From Parvibaculaceae bacterium (lineage in GTDB: Bacteria > Pseudomonadota > Alphaproteobacteria > Parvibaculales > Parvibaculaceae): a DNA stretch of 64,000 nt. Under the pieces are notes generated by a model, which was not told the DNA's origin, ran no database searches, and worked only from the letters and a program-made list of their open reading frames with translations. Shown piece by piece: positions 1 to 49,038 of the stretch. Positions within the stretch are counted from its first letter, which is position 1; each line of letters starts with the position of its first letter. The translations under genes were made by a program, and so were the position numbers. The stretch spans positions 1 through 64,000 of the forward strand of contig JAPWJY010000009.1 of the NCBI GenBank assembly GCA_028283765.1, read 5' to 3'.

Positions 1-744
1 CATGACCTTGGCATCCGCGGCACGGACATTCTGGCCGCGCTGGACCGCAACACCGCGAAGGTGACCTGGGCCGCGGGCCTGTTCAAGCCGCTGCCGCCGC
101 CATGCAGGCGATCATCTGGCAGTTTCCTGGCGCGAGCGAGACATTCCCCCCCAAGGCGATCACTGACCTGATCTACCCCGTCAGCAAGACGGATCTCCAC
201 GCCCTGCGCCTGCTGAGCTTCCTGTCGCTCCGCCTGGCTTGCCCGCATCACGGTCAGCCGCATCGAGGCGGACTGGTCGCGCGCGCCGCTTCGCTGGTTC
301 ACGCTGATCGGCCGTAACGGCCCGCCCTGCTTCACGCTCGGCACGATGATTTCGCTGGGCGGCGACGTGATCAATCTCAATACCCACGTGCCGGGCCTCA
401 GCTATGGCGTGGACGCGGCCGCCGTGCTGCTGATGGTATTCATCGCCTGGGTCACCGAGGAACTCGACCGGCGCAAGAAGGCGCGCGCCGCCGCCCTTGC
501 ACCGCAAACCGCTCCTGTGCCGGAAAATGCCGCCGTGCTGGCCCGCGCCAAGGGCGACGCCCTCCACCTACTGATCTGCACCGGGCTTTCCAGACAAGTT
601 CCCGGCAGTCATCGCACGGCCCTGCCCCCGGCCGGGCCGGAAGCGCCTGTTTCAGCCGCATTATCCTTCTTTTTGCTGAATATTGCGCCGCCGGGTTTCA
701 TGGCGCTCCTGGACATGGCCATCTCGCCAGACAGCCGCCTATGA
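1..744 (+). pseudogene. OpgC-like membrane acyltransferase, C-terminal fragment with frameshifts
   Basis: The window opens inside this gene. Reading frame 1 is open at the start, coding similarity moves to frame 3 at about 95-235 (a KTDLHALRLLSFLSL stretch), then returns to frame 1 from about 240 (APLRWFTLIGRNG, then a hydrophobic segment YGVDAAAVLLMVFIAWV). This pattern of a KT-x-L-x-x-LRLL helix, a LGR/IGRN loop and a last transmembrane helix is what I recall of the C-terminus of OpgC proteins, which substitute periplasmic glucans. At least two frame changes are needed, so the copy is either degenerate or carries sequence errors. After about residue 60 of the last frame the tail has no recognisable homology. 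The family call is from remembered motifs only. Confidence 0.45.
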
Positions 745-964
745 CAAGATACAATCAAATTCGAGCACAAAATTTAGGCAAATATCAGAATTTGATTATC
801 CTGAAAGCAAATTGATGTAGATTTGATCAGCGCAGGGTGGTGCGCATGGGGCGGGATTCAAGCGAAACAATCATTCCACGGTCGTGTTTTCGTCCGGCAT
901 AATGCTTTTTTTGAGAAATGGTACCGCGCAGGCATCCAATTCTGCAGAGGGGCGTAGGGAAGAA

Positions 965-2618
<1,654 letters not shown>

Positions 2619-2671
2619 GCGTCTTGAGGTGGGGGCGCTCTCCCCCACACCCAGCGGGTTATCCCGTTTTC

Positions 2672-2702
2672 AACCCGGAAGCTTATTGCTTCCGGGTTTT
2701 TT
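2672..2702 (+). terminator. Rho-independent terminator of amtB-glnK
   Basis: An 11-bp perfect stem (AACCCGGAAGC at 2672-2682 pairing with GCTTCCGGGTT at 2688-2698), a five-base loop and a run of six T. It lies 54 bases after the glnK stop codon. Confidence 0.92.
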
Positions 2703-2723
2703 GTTGTCTTGCGGCTATGGAGC

Positions 2724-2873
2724 TGTGGATAAGTTGCGGCTCAGCCGATCAGGGGAATCCCGCACCGGAGACGGGCCGGGCGCCTGGGGAAAAGTCAGCC
2801 ATGAAACGCCGGCACCGGCTGCGATTCGGGTACTCTGGGGATAATGCCCGCTTGATGCACAGCTTTATCCACA
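2724..2873. other. Cluster of DnaA boxes in a convergent intergenic gap
   Basis: The gap between the glnK terminator and the 3' end of the next (minus-strand) gene holds TGTGGATAA at 2724-2732, TGGGGATAA at 2836-2844 and TTATCCACA at 2865-2873. The first and last are perfect copies of the consensus DnaA box in opposite orientation, and the middle one differs at one base. Both flanking genes end here, so the boxes are not in a promoter. This fits an origin-like, DnaA-titrating or replication-timing site. There is no long AT-rich unwinding element inside the gap, so function is inferred. Confidence 0.5.
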
Positions 2874-2889
2874 GATCGGGGCGGCAACC

Positions 2890-4257
2890 TCAGATGCGCG
2901 ACGGCGCGGCCAGCCGGGTCATGCTGAGTCCCATGGCCACAAGGGCGAAGCCTGCGCCAAGGAACAGCGAGATATTGGTGAAATGATCGGGGGCGATGCC
3001 GAAAATGAGCGCGACCAGCGCCGCGCCCGTGGTCTGGCCGGTCAGCCGGGCGGTGCCCAGCATCCCGCTTGCCCCGCCGCTGCGCTCCGGCGGCGAGGAT
3101 GACAGCATGGCCCGGTTGTTGGGCGACTGGAACAGCCCGAAGCCGACACCGCAGAGAGCCATCCGCCAGATGATGTCGATGCTGGCCGGATTGGGGTGCA
3201 GGAAGCCCAGCGACAGGAGGCCAAGGGCGAAAATGAGAAGTCCGGCCCCACCCAGCAGCCCCGCCGGATAGCGGTCGGCGAGCTTGCCTGCGATGGGCGC
3301 GACAATGGCGATGGTCAACGGCCAGGGAGTCATGAGCAGGCCCGTCGCCACTTCCGAGCGCCCGGCGAAGGTTTGCAGGAAGAACGGCAGGCAGACGCCG
3401 GCCAGCGTCTGCGCCGCGAAGGCGAAGACCGACGTCGAGATCGAGAGCGCGAAAATCGGGATGCGCAGCAGGTCCACCGGCAAAAGCGGCGAGGGCCGCT
3501 CAAGCTGGCGCAGCACCAGAAGCACGCCGGACACGATCGCCAGCGCCATCAGTCCCAGCGAAAGCGGCAACCCGCCCCCGTGCGCGAACCCGTCGATGGA
3601 GGAGATGAACGACCCGAACATGACCGCGTTCAACCCGGCGCTGATCCAGTCGAAGCGGTGCCGGCCGCGTGGCGTCACCGGCAAGGTGCGGGCGACCATG
3701 ATGGCGACGAGCCCCAGCGGCACATTGATGGCGAACAGCCATTGCCAGCGCGCAACCGCCAGAATGGCGGCGGCGACCGTGGGGCCGACGGCCGACGAAA
3801 CGGCGACCACCATGGCGATGATGCCGACGGCGCGGCCGAGCTGCGCGCGGGGATAGATGAACCGGATCAGGGCGCTGTTCACGCTCATGATGCCCGCCGC
3901 GCCGAAGCCTTGCAGGATGCGGGCGACGGTCAGCGTTTCGAGCGAGGTCGAGAGCGCGCAGGCAAGGCTGGCGATGGCAAAAAGGATCAGCCCGCCTCGG
4001 TAGACCCGGGCATAGCCGAAAATCTCCCCGAGCGAGGCGAGCGGCAGCAGGGAAATGGTGACGGCAAGCTGGTAGCCGTTGACGATCCAGATCGCGGCGC
4101 CCGGACTCGTGCCCAGATCGTGGGTGATGGTGGGCAGCGCGATGTTGGCGATGGCGCCATCCAGCACGGCCATGGTGATGGCGAGCGCGACTGAAAAAAT
4201 GGCCCAGTAGCGCTGGGGGACGGGCAGGCCGTCTTGCTGTTGGGGGGAAGAGTTCAT
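2890..4257 (-). CDS. MFS drug-efflux transporter, DHA2 family-like
   Basis: A 455-residue inner-membrane protein with about 14 hydrophobic segments. The N-terminal part reads MAVLDGAIANIALPTI, the typical first-helix motif (LDxTIVNVALP type) of the 14-helix DHA2 drug:H+ antiporters. It is followed by WIVNGYQLAVTISLLPLASLGEIFG and the R-x-LQG-x-GAA motif of helix 4. The start at 4257 places this motif about 30 residues in. Longer in-frame starts add a non-hydrophobic tail and are less likely. It is convergent with amtB-glnK and divergent from the aminotransferase gene. The substrate cannot be read from the sequence. Confidence 0.85.
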   Translation of the reverse strand: MNSSPQQQDGLPVPQRYWAIFSVALAITMAVLDGAIANIALPTITHDLGTSPGAAIWIVNGYQLAVTISLLPLASLGEIFGYARVYRGGLILFAIASLACALSTSLETLTVARILQGFGAAGIMSVNSALIRFIYPRAQLGRAVGIIAMVVAVSSAVGPTVAAAILAVARWQWLFAINVPLGLVAIMVARTLPVTPRGRHRFDWISAGLNAVMFGSFISSIDGFAHGGGLPLSLGLMALAIVSGVLLVLRQLERPSPLLPVDLLRIPIFALSISTSVFAFAAQTLAGVCLPFFLQTFAGRSEVATGLLMTPWPLTIAIVAPIAGKLADRYPAGLLGGAGLLIFALGLLSLGFLHPNPASIDIIWRMALCGVGFGLFQSPNNRAMLSSSPPERSGGASGMLGTARLTGQTTGAALVALIFGIAPDHFTNISLFLGAGFALVAMGLSMTRLAAPSRI

Positions 4258-4495
4258 CGGGCGTCTCGAAAGCGATCCGCACCCTTTAGACCCATTCCAA
4301 CCGGCTGACCAGAAAAAGCAAACAATCTTCAGATTAATTCTCGCCATGCTTTTGGCGCGGTTTTCCCGGGAAAGTGCATGAAACCGGGGAGAAACCAGCG
4401 TTTCCCCACCGCAGGTTGCACCGCGGGGGGATAGGCGGCAATGTACGGCGCGATGCCGATTCATGGCCGCCGGGCCCGGCAGAGATTCCCTGCGG

Positions 4496-4529
4496 GTCTT
4501 CCCGAAGTCTTCCAAGGGTCTTCCCAAGG
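4496..4529 (+). repeat. Triple 11-12 bp tandem repeat upstream of the aminotransferase gene
   Basis: Three near-identical units of the form GTCTTCC(C)AAGG (GTCTTCCCGAA, GTCTTCCAAGG, GTCTTCCCAAGG) stand head to tail directly before the start region of the following gene. The last units also provide AAGG ribosome-site-like cores. It may be a regulator site or a slippage product. Confidence 0.5.
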
Positions 4530-4550
4530 ATCTGAGTGTGTCCAAGGATC

Positions 4551-5741
4551 ATGAGCGCTTCCCGTTTCGCCGACCTGCCTGAATCGCCCTTTGCCCGGCT
4601 TGCCTCCCTGATCGAGGGGCTGACGCCCGGAAAGCCGCCGATCGCCCTGTCGCTGGGCGAACCCCGGCATCCATTCCCGGCCTTCATCATGGAGGCCATC
4701 GCCGCCAATGCCGCCGATTTCGGGCGCTATCCGCCGATCATCGGCACACCGGCCTTCCGCGCCGCGGCCACCGGCTGGCTCAACCGGCGCTTCGGCCTGC
4801 CCGAGGGCTGGCTCGACCCGGAAAACCAGCTTTTGCCGGTCAACGGCACCCGCGAGGCGCTGTTCAACATGGCGATCGTGGCGACGCCGCTGGCCAAAGC
4901 TGGAAAAAAGCCCGCGATCCTGATGCCCAACCCCTTTTACCAGTGCTACGCCGCCGCCGCGCTCGCCGCAGGCGCCGAGCCCGTCTATGTGGCGGCGACC
5001 AAGGAAAACGGCTTCCTGCCGGATTTCGCCGCCCTGCCCGAAGAGCTGCTGGCGCGCACCTCCATGATCTATTTCTGCAGCCCGGCGAACCCGCAGGGCT
5101 CGGTCGCGGATCTCGGCTATCTCAAGGAACTCATCCTCCTTGCCCGCCGCCACGGCATCCTGCTCGCCATGGACGAATGCTATGCCGACATCTACGACCG
5201 CGCGGCCCCGCCCGGCGCGCTGAAGGCGGCCTTTGAACTCGACGGCACGGCGGACAATGTGATCGTGCTCCATTCCCTGTCGAAGCGCTCAAGCCTGCCG
5301 GGCCTGCGCTCGGGTTTCTGCGCGGGCGACCGGGCGTTCATCGCGAAATTCCGCTCCATGCGCAACATCGCCGCCCCGCAGGTGCCGCTGCCCCTTCTGG
5401 CGGCTTCCGCCCTTGCCTGGGCCGATGATGCCCACGCCGCTGACAATCGCACACTTTATCAGCGTAAAATCGACATGGCTGAGCGTATTCTGGGGAACCG
5501 ATTCGGTTTCTACCGCCCGGCCGGAGGCTTTTTCCTCTGGCTCGACGTGGAGGATGGCGAGGCGGCCACCCGCCGCCTGTGGACAGAGGCGGGGGTGAAA
5601 GTTCTCCCCGGTGCCTATCTGGCGCGCGATGATGAGAGCGTGGCCGGGGGCAATCCGGGCCGGGCCTTCATCAGGGTGGCGCTGGTCGAGGCGGAAAATG
5701 TGATGGAAGAGGCGTTGAAACGTATGGCGGAGGCTCTGTAG
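4551..5741 (+). CDS. dapC: Class I/II PLP aminotransferase, N-succinyldiaminopimelate aminotransferase-like (DapC)
   Basis: A 396-residue fold-type I aminotransferase. Visible motifs are GEPRHPFP near the N-terminus, PNPFYQCY, the CSPANPQGS substrate loop, DECYADIY with the PLP-pyridine aspartate, and [14 protein letters not shown] with the PLP lysine at about residue 245. The SKRSxxPGLRSGF pattern is typical of the proteobacterial DapC branch, which converts N-succinyl-2-amino-6-oxopimelate in lysine and peptidoglycan biosynthesis. Related aminotransferases cannot be excluded. A GTG at 4536 is an alternative start; both have AAGGA nearby. ftsK starts two bases after the stop, so the two are probably co-transcribed. 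Confidence 0.82.
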
Positions 5742-5743
5742 GG

Positions 5744-8293
5744 ATGGCGCGGACGAGGGGGCATCCCGGAGCGGTGTCTCACGGCAACAACGAACCTGAA
5801 ACCGTCGTGGACTTCATGCGCCGGCGGTTGCAGGAGGCGCTTGGCCTCGGCCTCATTCTCGTCTGCTTCGCCGGTCTTCTCGCCATTTCCACCTGGCACC
5901 AGAGCGACCCCAGCCTCAACAACGCCACCCGCAGCGTCGCCCAGAACTGGCTCGGCATCGTCGGGGCCTATCTCTCGGACCTGCTCCTGCAAACGCTGGG
6001 GCTGGGGGCCGCCGCCTTTTTCGCGCCGCCCGCCACATGGGGCTACAGCTTCCTCAAGCACCGCGAACCCGACGGGTTCCTCTGGCGCGTCTCCGGCTGG
6101 TTCATGGGCACGTTCTTCATGTCGGCCTTCCTCGCCACCCTGCCGGTGCCCTCGTTCTGGCCGCTCGCCTCCGGACTCGGCGGCGTCATCGGCCAGGCCA
6201 TCGTCAACGCCGGGCTGATGCTGACCAGCCTGTTCGCCTCGAACGGCATCGGCCATCTGATCATCGCCGCCGTTTCGGCCCTCTTCTCCATCGGGCTGAT
6301 CGTTTTCTCCTGTGCGCTTGAGACATCCGGCGAGAGCGGGAAAACGGAGAAGTCCGCCTCCGCGCGGTCCGCCGCCGGGCGCAAGGAACCCCAGTCTGCG
6401 CGCGCCCGGGCCGAAGCGAAGAAAGCCGGAACGCTGGTGGCGACCCGGCCCGGCGCGGACAATCCGCCCGCCGCCAAAACCGGCTTCGGCGCACGGCTTG
6501 GCTCGCTCCTCGCCCGCAAGGAGGAGGAAGCCCCGCTGGTCCGCGTCGAACCGCAGGTCGCCGGACGCGCCAGCGTGGTGCGTCCCCCTGTTGCCGCGGC
6601 GAGCGAAGATGAATTCGAGGACGACTACCCGCCGGAGGAGCCGGACGATTTCCCCGACGAGGTGGCCGACGAGGCCCCGGTCCGCACGCCGCGCGTCGAC
6701 CGGCCTGCGCCCAGGGCCAAACCCTCGGCCCGCGCCGAGCGGGAAAAGCAGCCCGCCCTGCCCTTCGATGAGCCCCGGAGCTACGAACTGCCGCCGCTCA
6801 GCCTGCTCGCCAAGCCGCGCGTGCTGCCCGCGGGCACCCAGCTTCCCGACGAGGCGCTGGAACAGAACGCCCGCATCCTCGAAACCGTGCTGGACGATTT
6901 CGGCATAAGGGGCGAGATCATCCATGTCCGCCCCGGCCCTGTGGTCACGCTCTATGAGCTTTCGCCCGCGCCCGGCATCAAATCCTCGCGCGTGATCGCG
7001 CTCGCCGACGACATCGCCCGTTCGATGAGCGCGGTCTCGGCCCGCGTCGCCGTGGTGCCCGGACGCAATGTCATCGGCATCGAACTCCCGAACCAGAAGC
7101 GCGAGATGGTCTATCTGCGCGAACTGCTGGAATCGGCCGATTTCGAGCATTCAAGCTCCAAGCTGCCGCTGGCGCTCGGCAAGAACATCGGCGGCGAGGC
7201 GGTGATTTCCGACCTGAGCCGGATGCCCCATCTGCTGATCGCGGGCACCACGGGTTCGGGCAAGTCCGTCGGCATCAACACCATGATCCTGTCGCTGCTC
7301 TACCGGCTGCCGCCGGACAAGTGCAAGCTGATCATGGTCGATCCCAAGATGCTGGAGCTTTCCGTCTATGACGGCATCCCGCACCTGCTCACCCCGGTGG
7401 TGACCGACCCCAAAAAGGCCGTGGTCGCGCTCAAATGGGTGGTGAAGGAGATGGAGAACCGCTACCGCTCCATGTCCAAGGTCGGCGTGCGCAATATCGA
7501 GGGCTTCAACCAGCGCGTGACCGAGGCGGCGGGCAAGGGAGAAACCATTTCCCGCACGGTCCAGACCGGTTTCGACCCGGAAAGCGGCAAGGCGATCTAC
7601 GAGACCGAGCGCATGGAGCTTGAGCCCATGCCGTTCATCGTCGTCATCGTGGACGAGATGGCCGACCTGATGATGGTCGCGGGCAAGGAAATCGAGGGCG
7701 CGATCCAGCGCATCGCCCAGATGGCGCGCGCGGCGGGCATCCACGTCATCACCGCGACCCAGCGCCCCTCGGTCGACGTCATCACCGGCACGATCAAGGC
7801 GAACTTCCCGACCCGAATCTCCTTTCAGGTCACCTCCAAGATCGACAGCCGGACCATTCTGGGCGAACAGGGCGCCGAGCAGTTGCTGGGCCAGGGCGAC
7901 ATGCTGTTCATGGCGGGCGGCGGCCGCATCCGCCGCGTCCATGGCCCGTTCGTCTCCGACGACGAGGTGGAGAAGGTCGTGAGCTTCCTCAAGCGGCAGG
8001 GCACGCCCGAATATCTGGAAGCCATCACCGACGAACCCGATGATGGCGGGTCGGAAACCATGAGCTTCGGCGGCACCGGCGAGGGCGACGAGCTTTACGA
8101 CAAGGCGGTCGCCATCGTCGCCCGCGACAAGAAGGCCACCACCAGCTATATCCAGCGGCGGCTCCAGATCGGCTACAACCGGGCGGCGGGCCTGATCGAG
8201 ATGATGGAAGAGCAGGGCGTGATCAGCGCGCCCAACGCGCAAGGCCGCCGCGAGGTTCTGATCGGCGAGCCGGGTGAAGGCGCAAGGTACTGA
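5744..8293 (+). CDS. ftsK: DNA translocase FtsK
   Basis: An 849-residue septal DNA pump. Four hydrophobic segments occupy about residues 28-200. A charged Pro/Glu/Arg-rich linker runs to about residue 340. The alpha/beta motor follows, with Walker A GTTGSGKS at about residues 500-508 and Walker [13 protein letters not shown] at about 630-640. The winged-helix gamma domain that reads KOPS sites is at the C-terminus ([20 protein letters not shown], then EEQGVIS). FtsK pumps chromosome ends at the division septum and activates XerCD at dif. The start is two bases after the upstream aminotransferase stop. The linker is shorter than in E. coli, as usual for alphaproteobacteria. Confidence 0.97.
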
Positions 8294-47442: not shown

Positions 47443-49038
47443 GTGCGCCTTTCAGAGCGCGCGGGATTCAAGACGAGGCCGACGAATTTGGACAAGACCG
47501 CTCCGGCGACCACTCATAGCGGCCGCGGTATAAAAACAAACAATCCAGGTACGGCTGACTCCTCCAGCAAGAGCGCGAGCCCCATACCCGATTCAGCCCT
47601 TGCCTCCGCATGGCGGCGCGTGCGCGCGCGGCTGCAGGCCGATCTGGGCGAAGCCACCTACAACAGCTGGTTTGCCCAGGTCGAGATGATCGGCGTCCAT
47701 GCCGGACGGGTTGTCCTCGGTGTGCCGACCCGCTTTGTGCGCAACTGGATCGCCTCCCACCATATGGACCGGCTGGAAGTGCTCTGGCAGGAGGAAGACC
47801 CGACGCTCCAGCGGGTGGAAGTGGTGGTCCATGCGAGAGACGGCCAGGATGACGCGCCCGCGCTTGCCGTCAGCGGTTTCAACGAGGCGGCCCAACCCGC
47901 ACAGTTCGCCGCCGCCCATGCCGGTTCCGGCGAATCCGTCCGCGAGGTGACGCCTGTCCACGCCACCTCCTCGACGCTCGAAGAAGCCGGTGTCGGCGCG
48001 CCGCTCGACCAGCGCTTCACGTTCGACGCCTTCATCGTCGGCAAGTCGAACGAACTGGCGCACGCCGCCGCGCGCCGGGTGGCCGAAGCCAGCGACGTGA
48101 GCTTCAACCCGCTGTTCCTCTATGGCGGGGTCGGCCTCGGCAAGACGCATCTGATGCATGCGATCGCCTGGGACATCCGCCGCCTCCACCCCGAGCGCAA
48201 GGTGCTGTATCTCTCCGCCGAGAAATTCATGTACCAGTTCGTGCGCGCCCTCCGGTTCAAGGACACGATGGCGTTCAAGCAGCAGTTCCGCACCGTGGAC
48301 GTGCTGATGATCGACGACGTGCAGTTCATCTCCGGCAAGGACTCGACGCAGGAGGAGTTCTTCCACACCTTCAATGCGCTGATCGACCACAACCGGCAGG
48401 TCATCATCTCCGCCGACCGTTCTCCTTCCGATCTGGAAGGGATCGAGGAGCGCATCCGCTCGCGGCTCGGCTGGGGCCTTGTCGCCGACATCCATCCGAC
48501 GGATTATGAATTGCGCCTCGGCATTCTTCAGGCGAAGGCCGACGAGATCATGGCCCGTTCCGGCCATATCGACATGCCGGTGGGCGTGCTCGAATTTCTG
48601 GCCCACCGCATCATCTCGAACGTGCGCGAGCTGGAAGGCGCCCTGAAGCGCGTCGTCGCCTATGCCTCGCTCGTCGGGCGTCCCATCTCTCTCGACATGA
48701 CGCAGGAGGTTCTCCGCGACCTGCTCCGCTCGAACGACCGCAAGGTCACCATCGAGGAGATCCAGCGCAAGGTGGCGGAATATTACAATGTCCGCCTTGC
48801 CGATCTGCTGTCGGCCCGGCGCTCCCGCCAGATTGCCCGGCCGCGTCAGGTCGCCATGTACCTGTCCAAGCAGCTTACCACCCGCTCGCTCCCTGAAATC
48901 GGCCGGAAATTCGGCGGCCGGGACCATACGACCGTGATTCACGCGGTCCGCAAGATCGACGAACTGTGCCAGAGCGACGCCGGACTGGAAGAGGATGTCG
49001 ATCTGCTCCGCCGGATGCTCGAAAACGCCAGCCATTGA
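47443..49038 (+). CDS. dnaA: Chromosomal replication initiator protein DnaA
   Basis: A 531-residue AAA+ initiator from the GTG at 47443. Domain I is near ALASAWRRVRARLQADLGEATYNSWFAQVEMI, a variable linker follows, Walker A is GGVGLGKTHLMHAIAW (about residues 228-240) and Walker B is VLMIDDVQF. The C-terminal DNA-binding domain carries GGRDHTTVIHAVRKI. It recognises TTATCCACA boxes and opens oriC. A TTG at 47488 (MDKTAPAT) is an alternative start. The 55-base gap from the rhodanese gene has no terminator, so partial co-transcription is possible. Confidence 0.97.
   Translation: MRLSERAGFKTRPTNLDKTAPATTHSGRGIKTNNPGTADSSSKSASPIPDSALASAWRRVRARLQADLGEATYNSWFAQVEMIGVHAGRVVLGVPTRFVRNWIASHHMDRLEVLWQEEDPTLQRVEVVVHARDGQDDAPALAVSGFNEAAQPAQFAAAHAGSGESVREVTPVHATSSTLEEAGVGAPLDQRFTFDAFIVGKSNELAHAAARRVAEASDVSFNPLFLYGGVGLGKTHLMHAIAWDIRRLHPERKVLYLSAEKFMYQFVRALRFKDTMAFKQQFRTVDVLMIDDVQFISGKDSTQEEFFHTFNALIDHNRQVIISADRSPSDLEGIEERIRSRLGWGLVADIHPTDYELRLGILQAKADEIMARSGHIDMPVGVLEFLAHRIISNVRELEGALKRVVAYASLVGRPISLDMTQEVLRDLLRSNDRKVTIEEIQRKVAEYYNVRLADLLSARRSRQIARPRQVAMYLSKQLTTRSLPEIGRKFGGRDHTTVIHAVRKIDELCQSDAGLEEDVDLLRRMLENASH

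Follow-up and report, generated by a model that had tools for sequence, protein, structure and literature searches.

We propose, with a probability of about two in three, that a small cluster of DnaA boxes in a Parvibaculaceae genome is that genome's version of a predicted DnaA/CtrA operator found upstream of an aminotransferase gene and ftsK in related Parvibaculaceae; this version would comprise an element at 2833..2875 (+) and an outlying box at 2724..2732 (-). The window analyzed here opens contig C4 (257 kb), covering its first 64 kb; C4 is one of 9 contigs in an assembly of 3,236,079 bases (3.24 Mb). Several things can be read directly in the DNA: that the boxes exist, how they are conserved, placed and spaced, that the site matches the element, and that a gene intervenes. 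The proposal makes no claim that ftsK is still controlled from this site in the window genome.

The site lies between convergent genes, as the first-pass annotation had stated. On one side are amt, an ammonium transporter gene (884..2257 (+), start per the ORF list), and glnK, a PII-type nitrogen regulator gene (2280..2618 (+); best models, below cut-offs), with a terminator-like hairpin 3' of glnK at 2672..2698 (+), just upstream of the boxes. On the other side, an MFS efflux-type transporter gene (2890..4257 (-); EmrB-like, below the model cut-off) ends at 2890, facing the end of glnK at 2618. This gene separates the element from an aminotransferase gene (4536..5741 (+); nearest to succinyldiaminopimelate transaminase models, below cut-offs), which ends 3 bases before ftsK, encoding the cell division DNA translocase (5744..8293 (+); best model, below cut-off). 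The distance of 45 kb to dnaA given in the same annotation was also right (dnaA, 47443-49038).

Three boxes occur at the site, all at the coordinates first reported for them. The box at 2724..2732 (-) is an exact TTATCCACA and an extra copy beyond the conserved element; the box at 2836..2844 (-), the first of the conserved element, has one mismatch here (TTATCCCCA); and the box at 2865..2873 (+), second and inverted, is exact (TTATCCACA). A scan found no other exact copy in the window, in agreement with the first-pass annotation, and the claim that such clustering is unlikely by chance was borne out by dinucleotide shuffles of the window, none of which (0/100) had two exact boxes. When the 271-bp interval was simulated 200,000 times, at least one exact box arose in 0.07% of cases and two in none. 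Scattering the 11 or 12 exact non-origin copies randomly gave a probability of 0.005-0.006 for a pair within 141 bp. Per 200-bp segment of contig C4, using penalties set by hand, the site reached a box score of 2.03, just under the 2.08 of the likely origin described below, and the best segment elsewhere scored 0.14 (14-fold lower).

Across the whole assembly, exact TTATCCACA occurred 15 times versus 20 for a reversed control pattern; the total number of DnaA boxes is not enriched, and their clustering is. Close-spaced exact boxes were found at two places only, namely this site and a triplet at C4:204106-204424. The triplet is flanked by hemE on one side and by COG1806, maf, aroE and coaE on the other, and the Caulobacter origin is described as flanked by hemE and COG1806 (PMC1914354). 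Cumulative GC skew along contig C4 drops until 200.6 kb and then climbs, and the keto skew minimum on this contig is at 205.4 kb. We therefore consider the hemE/COG1806 locus at C4:204 kb the likely chromosomal origin, on the basis of gene content, boxes and skew. It lies 201 kb from the site on the same contig, or about 6% of the assembly. The first-pass annotation had offered an origin as one candidate for the site and had looked to a skew minimum near 2.8 kb; because a hemE/COG1806 locus with three exact boxes lies near the skew minimum 201 kb away, and the contig C4 minimum is not near 2.8 kb, that candidate did not hold. At the site itself the flanks are glnK and the MFS gene, not hemE and COG1806, and there is neither a C4 skew minimum nor an AT-rich stretch (peak 60-bp AT content of 0.55 near the site versus 0.67 at the likely origin). 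We also searched 40 family genomes, which make up the order-level set as well, for an exact-box pair at the spacing of the site. Such a pair was present here and in G018, where it adjoins hemE, i.e., the likely origin; the reversed control pair was present in 0/40.

A search for exact boxes in nine relatives led to a box ahead of the aminotransferase gene. Of 104 loci put through an aminotransferase filter (bit score, and a start within the stretch), 62 passed, with G011 counted as two of them; the drop-outs include G016, for which just 900 bases were covered, and four named family loci (L060, L062, L063 and L065). Most of the family set (27/40 genomes) belongs to the neighboring genus g5, which includes Parvibaculum sedimenti, and the region ahead of the aminotransferase gene was examined in 12 genomes of g5, 2/2 of g3, 5/7 of g2 and 1/2 of g4. 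In all 12 g5 genomes an exact DnaA box precedes the extrapolated aminotransferase start by 147-207 bp, always oriented alike, and both g3 genomes have a one-mismatch box at the corresponding place. Conservation in relatives, which the first-pass annotation had proposed as a check, was thus found for the element. An exact box is also present in each of the seven named family loci retained by the filter; three of these share 300 bp with loci of the genome set and were not recounted there. No exact box was found ahead of the aminotransferase gene in five g2 genomes, one g4 genome, one genome of another family and 31 distant named loci, of which four have one-mismatch box words and one has a CtrA-like site.

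The box in relatives has a constant partner. A perfect TTAA-N7-TTAA CtrA site starts exactly 32 bp upstream of it in 12 of the 14 g5 and g3 genomes; the exceptions are G013, with one mismatch, and G019, with the second half-site only. The locus of P. sedimenti equals that of G019. Among the seven named family loci, four have a perfect CtrA site and three do not, one of the three being identical to G019. Downstream of the conserved box, most relatives have CCACAG followed by an inverted TTTTCCAC-type box. Pairwise identity within g5 (ungapped, 66 pairs) is 89% over the 38 bp from the box onward and 55% over the 65-bp stretch after that; the elements of G021 and G023 are identical across the 120 bp compared. 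Full CtrA sites in the interval ahead of the aminotransferase gene were present in 10/12 g5, 2/2 g3, 5/5 g2, 1/1 g4 and 0/1 other-family genomes. In the g2 loci (L149, L150, L182, L183 and L185) the full site lies 95-96 bp before the aminotransferase gene, with no DnaA box at one mismatch or fewer. Since g2 has the CtrA site without the DnaA box, CtrA control may be the older part.

Gene order in relatives runs from ammonium-transporter genes to the aminotransferase gene and then ftsK, which is the same syntenic interval as in the window, and ftsK was found to follow in 19 of the 22 relative loci. The 1.5 kb after amt in 19 loci held no exact box and two one-mismatch words. A DNA similarity search with the stretch across the 40 genomes returned its own genome only, and the contigs of G001, the sole other genome of the same genus compared, lack the sequence corresponding to window 2588-4059.

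We then compared the window with the relatives' element using a matrix built from 12 distinct sequences out of 15 relative loci; 11 of these loci came from g5 genomes, the other 4 were named loci, and the window was left out. Scanning all 257 kb of contig C4, the matrix gave 16.0 bits to 2833-2875 (+), in the same orientation as in relatives, and -9.6 to the runner-up. When the first-box columns were removed, the site still ranked second of about 515,000 positions. The element also aligned without gaps to G013 over 51 columns. Plain local alignment was more modest: the score was 23 versus a maximum of 18 in 60 mononucleotide shuffles, and with both exact 9-mers masked it fell to 14, when shuffles averaged 13.3 and reached 18 at most. 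From the matrix match, the box at 2836 most likely corresponds to the conserved first box, the box at 2865 to the inverted partner and the box at 2724 to an addition; the first of these is exact in 12/12 g5 genomes examined, and the second is mostly TTTTCCAC-type in relatives.

Several features set the window genome apart. The end of the element at 2875 is 1.66 kb from the aminotransferase start at 4536, with the MFS gene between, and no gene starts at the element. This MFS gene was present in 0/22 relative loci, one of which spans only 900 bases. A homologue (62% identical; query 2890-4248) occurs elsewhere in the G019 genome, and in G001 the start of the same MFS gene adjoins the aminotransferase gene at a contig end. 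No CtrA site at one mismatch or fewer was found in 2619-2890 or 4249-4536, and no CtrA-like site lies 32 bp upstream of the box at 2724-2732. A scan of 2500-3100 for promoters of the sigma-70 type found none at the site. The first-pass annotation had dismissed promoter control on the grounds that neither flanking gene starts here. The relatives speak against that dismissal: in them the element precedes the aminotransferase and ftsK genes by 147-207 bp, and the MFS gene turned up in none of the 22 loci, which makes promoter control the best explanation. The earlier interpretation thus survives in part, as a predicted DnaA-binding element is a good reading of the site, and an origin and the exclusion of a promoter are not.

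We suggest that the binding site of CtrA in relatives would be TTAA-N7-TTAA, and that of DnaA the box starting 32 bp downstream, along with the inverted, weaker partner box that starts about 29 bp further on. The aminotransferase gene and ftsK are probably one operon in relatives, and the two proteins together would tie transcription of genes including ftsK to replication. By contrast, the window genome has the MFS gene between the proposed operator and the ftsK genes and lacks the CtrA site, yet DnaA sites are kept: the old first box is weakened, its inverted partner fits the consensus perfectly, and one more perfect box is present upstream. An operator separated from its genes in this way may work over a distance, may serve to hold DnaA, or may be no more than a relic. 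Binding by DnaA and CtrA and an effect on transcription are what we infer from these sequence patterns, as is retained DnaA binding at the window site, which is probable.

The arrangement resembles the promoters of Caulobacter crescentus that are co-regulated by CtrA and DnaA, in that relatives have TTAA-N7-TTAA and DnaA sites before a division gene (PMC4287350). In that report, the regions listed as having both a CtrA motif and ChIP enrichment for CtrA include the Caulobacter ftsK promoter region, and 25 CtrA sites are found in promoters that contain DnaA motifs (PMC4287350). Unlike those promoters, the relatives show a fixed 32-bp spacing between CtrA and DnaA sites and an inverted DnaA partner box, and the window genome has no CtrA site and another gene in between. 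If our reading is right, DnaA as well as CtrA would directly control FtsK genes in a family of Alphaproteobacteria outside the usual models, and the fixed spacing suggests that both proteins meet on the DNA. The window genome would then be a natural experiment on why DnaA sites are retained, be it promoter control or DnaA binding itself. Some evidence runs against the proposal. In the window genome no gene start adjoins the element, the CtrA site is missing and the first box is mismatched; the exact box is confined to g5 among the examined genomes of the set, the plain alignment gives a modest score, and G019 retains a CtrA half-site only, with the site imperfect or missing in 3/7 named family loci. 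In Sinorhizobium, CtrA is described as acting on ftsK2 indirectly (PMC11500502), a slight argument against a general rule. DnaA sites have been described as poorly conserved across the class (PMC2877005), and the main text of that paper, by word search, mentions neither ftsK nor Parvibaculum. Among the matches listed in literature searches on DnaA-box clusters, ftsK or Parvibaculum with DnaA or CtrA, no title or abstract concerned the element.

Other readings of the cluster deserve weighing. The site could be a stand-alone DnaA reservoir, perhaps derived from an old ftsK operator, that would bind DnaA once replicated and restrain re-initiation; we regard this as unlikely, though not negligibly so. 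It is the sole box cluster besides the likely origin, lies 201 kb from it on the same contig and keeps two perfect boxes despite the separated promoter, which plain decay would not favor. As a non-origin chromosomal DnaA-box cluster it is like datA of E. coli and the near-origin clusters of Bacillus subtilis and Streptomyces (PMC4585315), and a datA-like titrating site was indeed among the first-pass candidates; DnaA-box density near the E. coli origin, described in PMC12371093, is background to this view. The site differs in having fewer boxes than these systems, with two exact and one one-mismatch box versus five plus an IHF site in E. coli datA (PMC4585315), and no IHF-like site (WATCAANNNNTTR, the E. 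coli consensus) at one mismatch or fewer occurs near 2700-2890. Moreover, the relatives' copy usually comes with a CtrA site and sits at a set position ahead of genes, pointing to transcription control. A related and slightly more doubtful possibility is that an old operator, cut off by another gene, was rebuilt into a stand-alone DnaA-binding site, in which case the CtrA site would have been lost, the inverted box perfected and a further perfect box gained. A datA-like DnaA reservoir would then have been caught evolving from a division-gene operator. To our knowledge, no such rebuilt reservoir has been described in Alphaproteobacteria, and none appeared by title or abstract among the matches listed in the literature searches above.

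Somewhat less probable again is a non-functional relic, whose role would have been lost once the MFS gene intervened and whose exact boxes would be chance survivors. The mutated first box, the missing CtrA site and the lack of a promoter-like site nearby fit this, as does the fact that one difference between the genome's two copies hits a box. The two perfect boxes count mildly against a relic, being improbable in a 271-bp interval in the simulations above. Pure coincidence, in which DnaA-like words merely happen to fall in intergenic DNA, would suit the genome total, which is lower than that of the reversed control, and the masked alignment, which is no better than shuffles. We consider it very improbable given a clustering probability of about 0.005, a matrix match in the expected place and orientation, and the second rank on the contig even without the first-box columns. 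A replication origin at the site, for which the clustered boxes would speak, is the least credible reading of all, as it is C4:200-205 kb that has the origin genes, the triplet of exact boxes, the higher AT content and the minimum in skew. The proposed displaced operator remains our preferred explanation.

Between the exact boxes are two TCCCCA cores, one at 2785..2790 (-) and one at 2836-2841 (-), the latter inside the mutated conserved box. They are like the weak W-boxes of the Caulobacter origin, for which PMC4285127 gives this consensus. Unlike those, they are not at an origin, and since one core is a mutated conserved box, they may be products of chance or decay. The first-pass annotation had missed these cores, and also that the whole segment recurs on contig C3.

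Window positions 1-2884 match C3:9367-12328 on the reverse strand, with 99.3% identity over 1001-2884, 95.9% over 1-1000 and 87 extra bases in C3 between the two pieces. The end of opgC is broken in the C4 copy; in the C3 copy opgC is unbroken and glnK is frameshifted. The box at 2724..2732 is identical in both copies, the difference that falls in a box concerns the one at 2865 (TTATCCGCA in C3), and the C3 element scores 15.7 bits by the matrix. Upstream DNA on the C3 side is collinear with L053, apparently the G001 contig, and the C4 side has the gene order of G001 and g5 relatives. Past the junction, C3 has a reading frame ending at the breakpoint and genes for a Y2-type transposase and a tyrosine recombinase (L050 6808-9366), and 9.4 kb of it gave only matches below 100 bases in the five relatives tested. 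This repeat would fit an assembly artefact as well as a genuine duplication in which accessory DNA separates the copies. We rejected the idea that the boxes are the terminal repeats of a small mobile element, despite 13-nt inverted arms, because there are two genomic copies only, both within the larger duplication, and no DNA match in the 39 other family genomes. A small or structured RNA was also rejected: the Rfam match over the terminator reached 23.8 bits versus a gathering score of 49.5, and the fold is ordinary (z -0.64). A second weak Rfam match lies inside amt.

Finally, we made several observations on the likely origin and other box clusters. At C4:204015-204525 (L009 10016-10526), no full CtrA site at one mismatch or fewer was found within the 20-kb locus, and the intergenic stretch had no IHF-like site at one mismatch or fewer. 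Close exact-box pairs also occur in G011 (C1:1403630-1403671, L187) and G013 (C3:332495-332544, L188); neither hemE nor COG1806 was present in the 4-4.5 kb surrounding them. In G001, three exact DnaA boxes at C207:8899-9217 have spacings of 186 and 124 bases, the same as those at the likely origin of the window genome.
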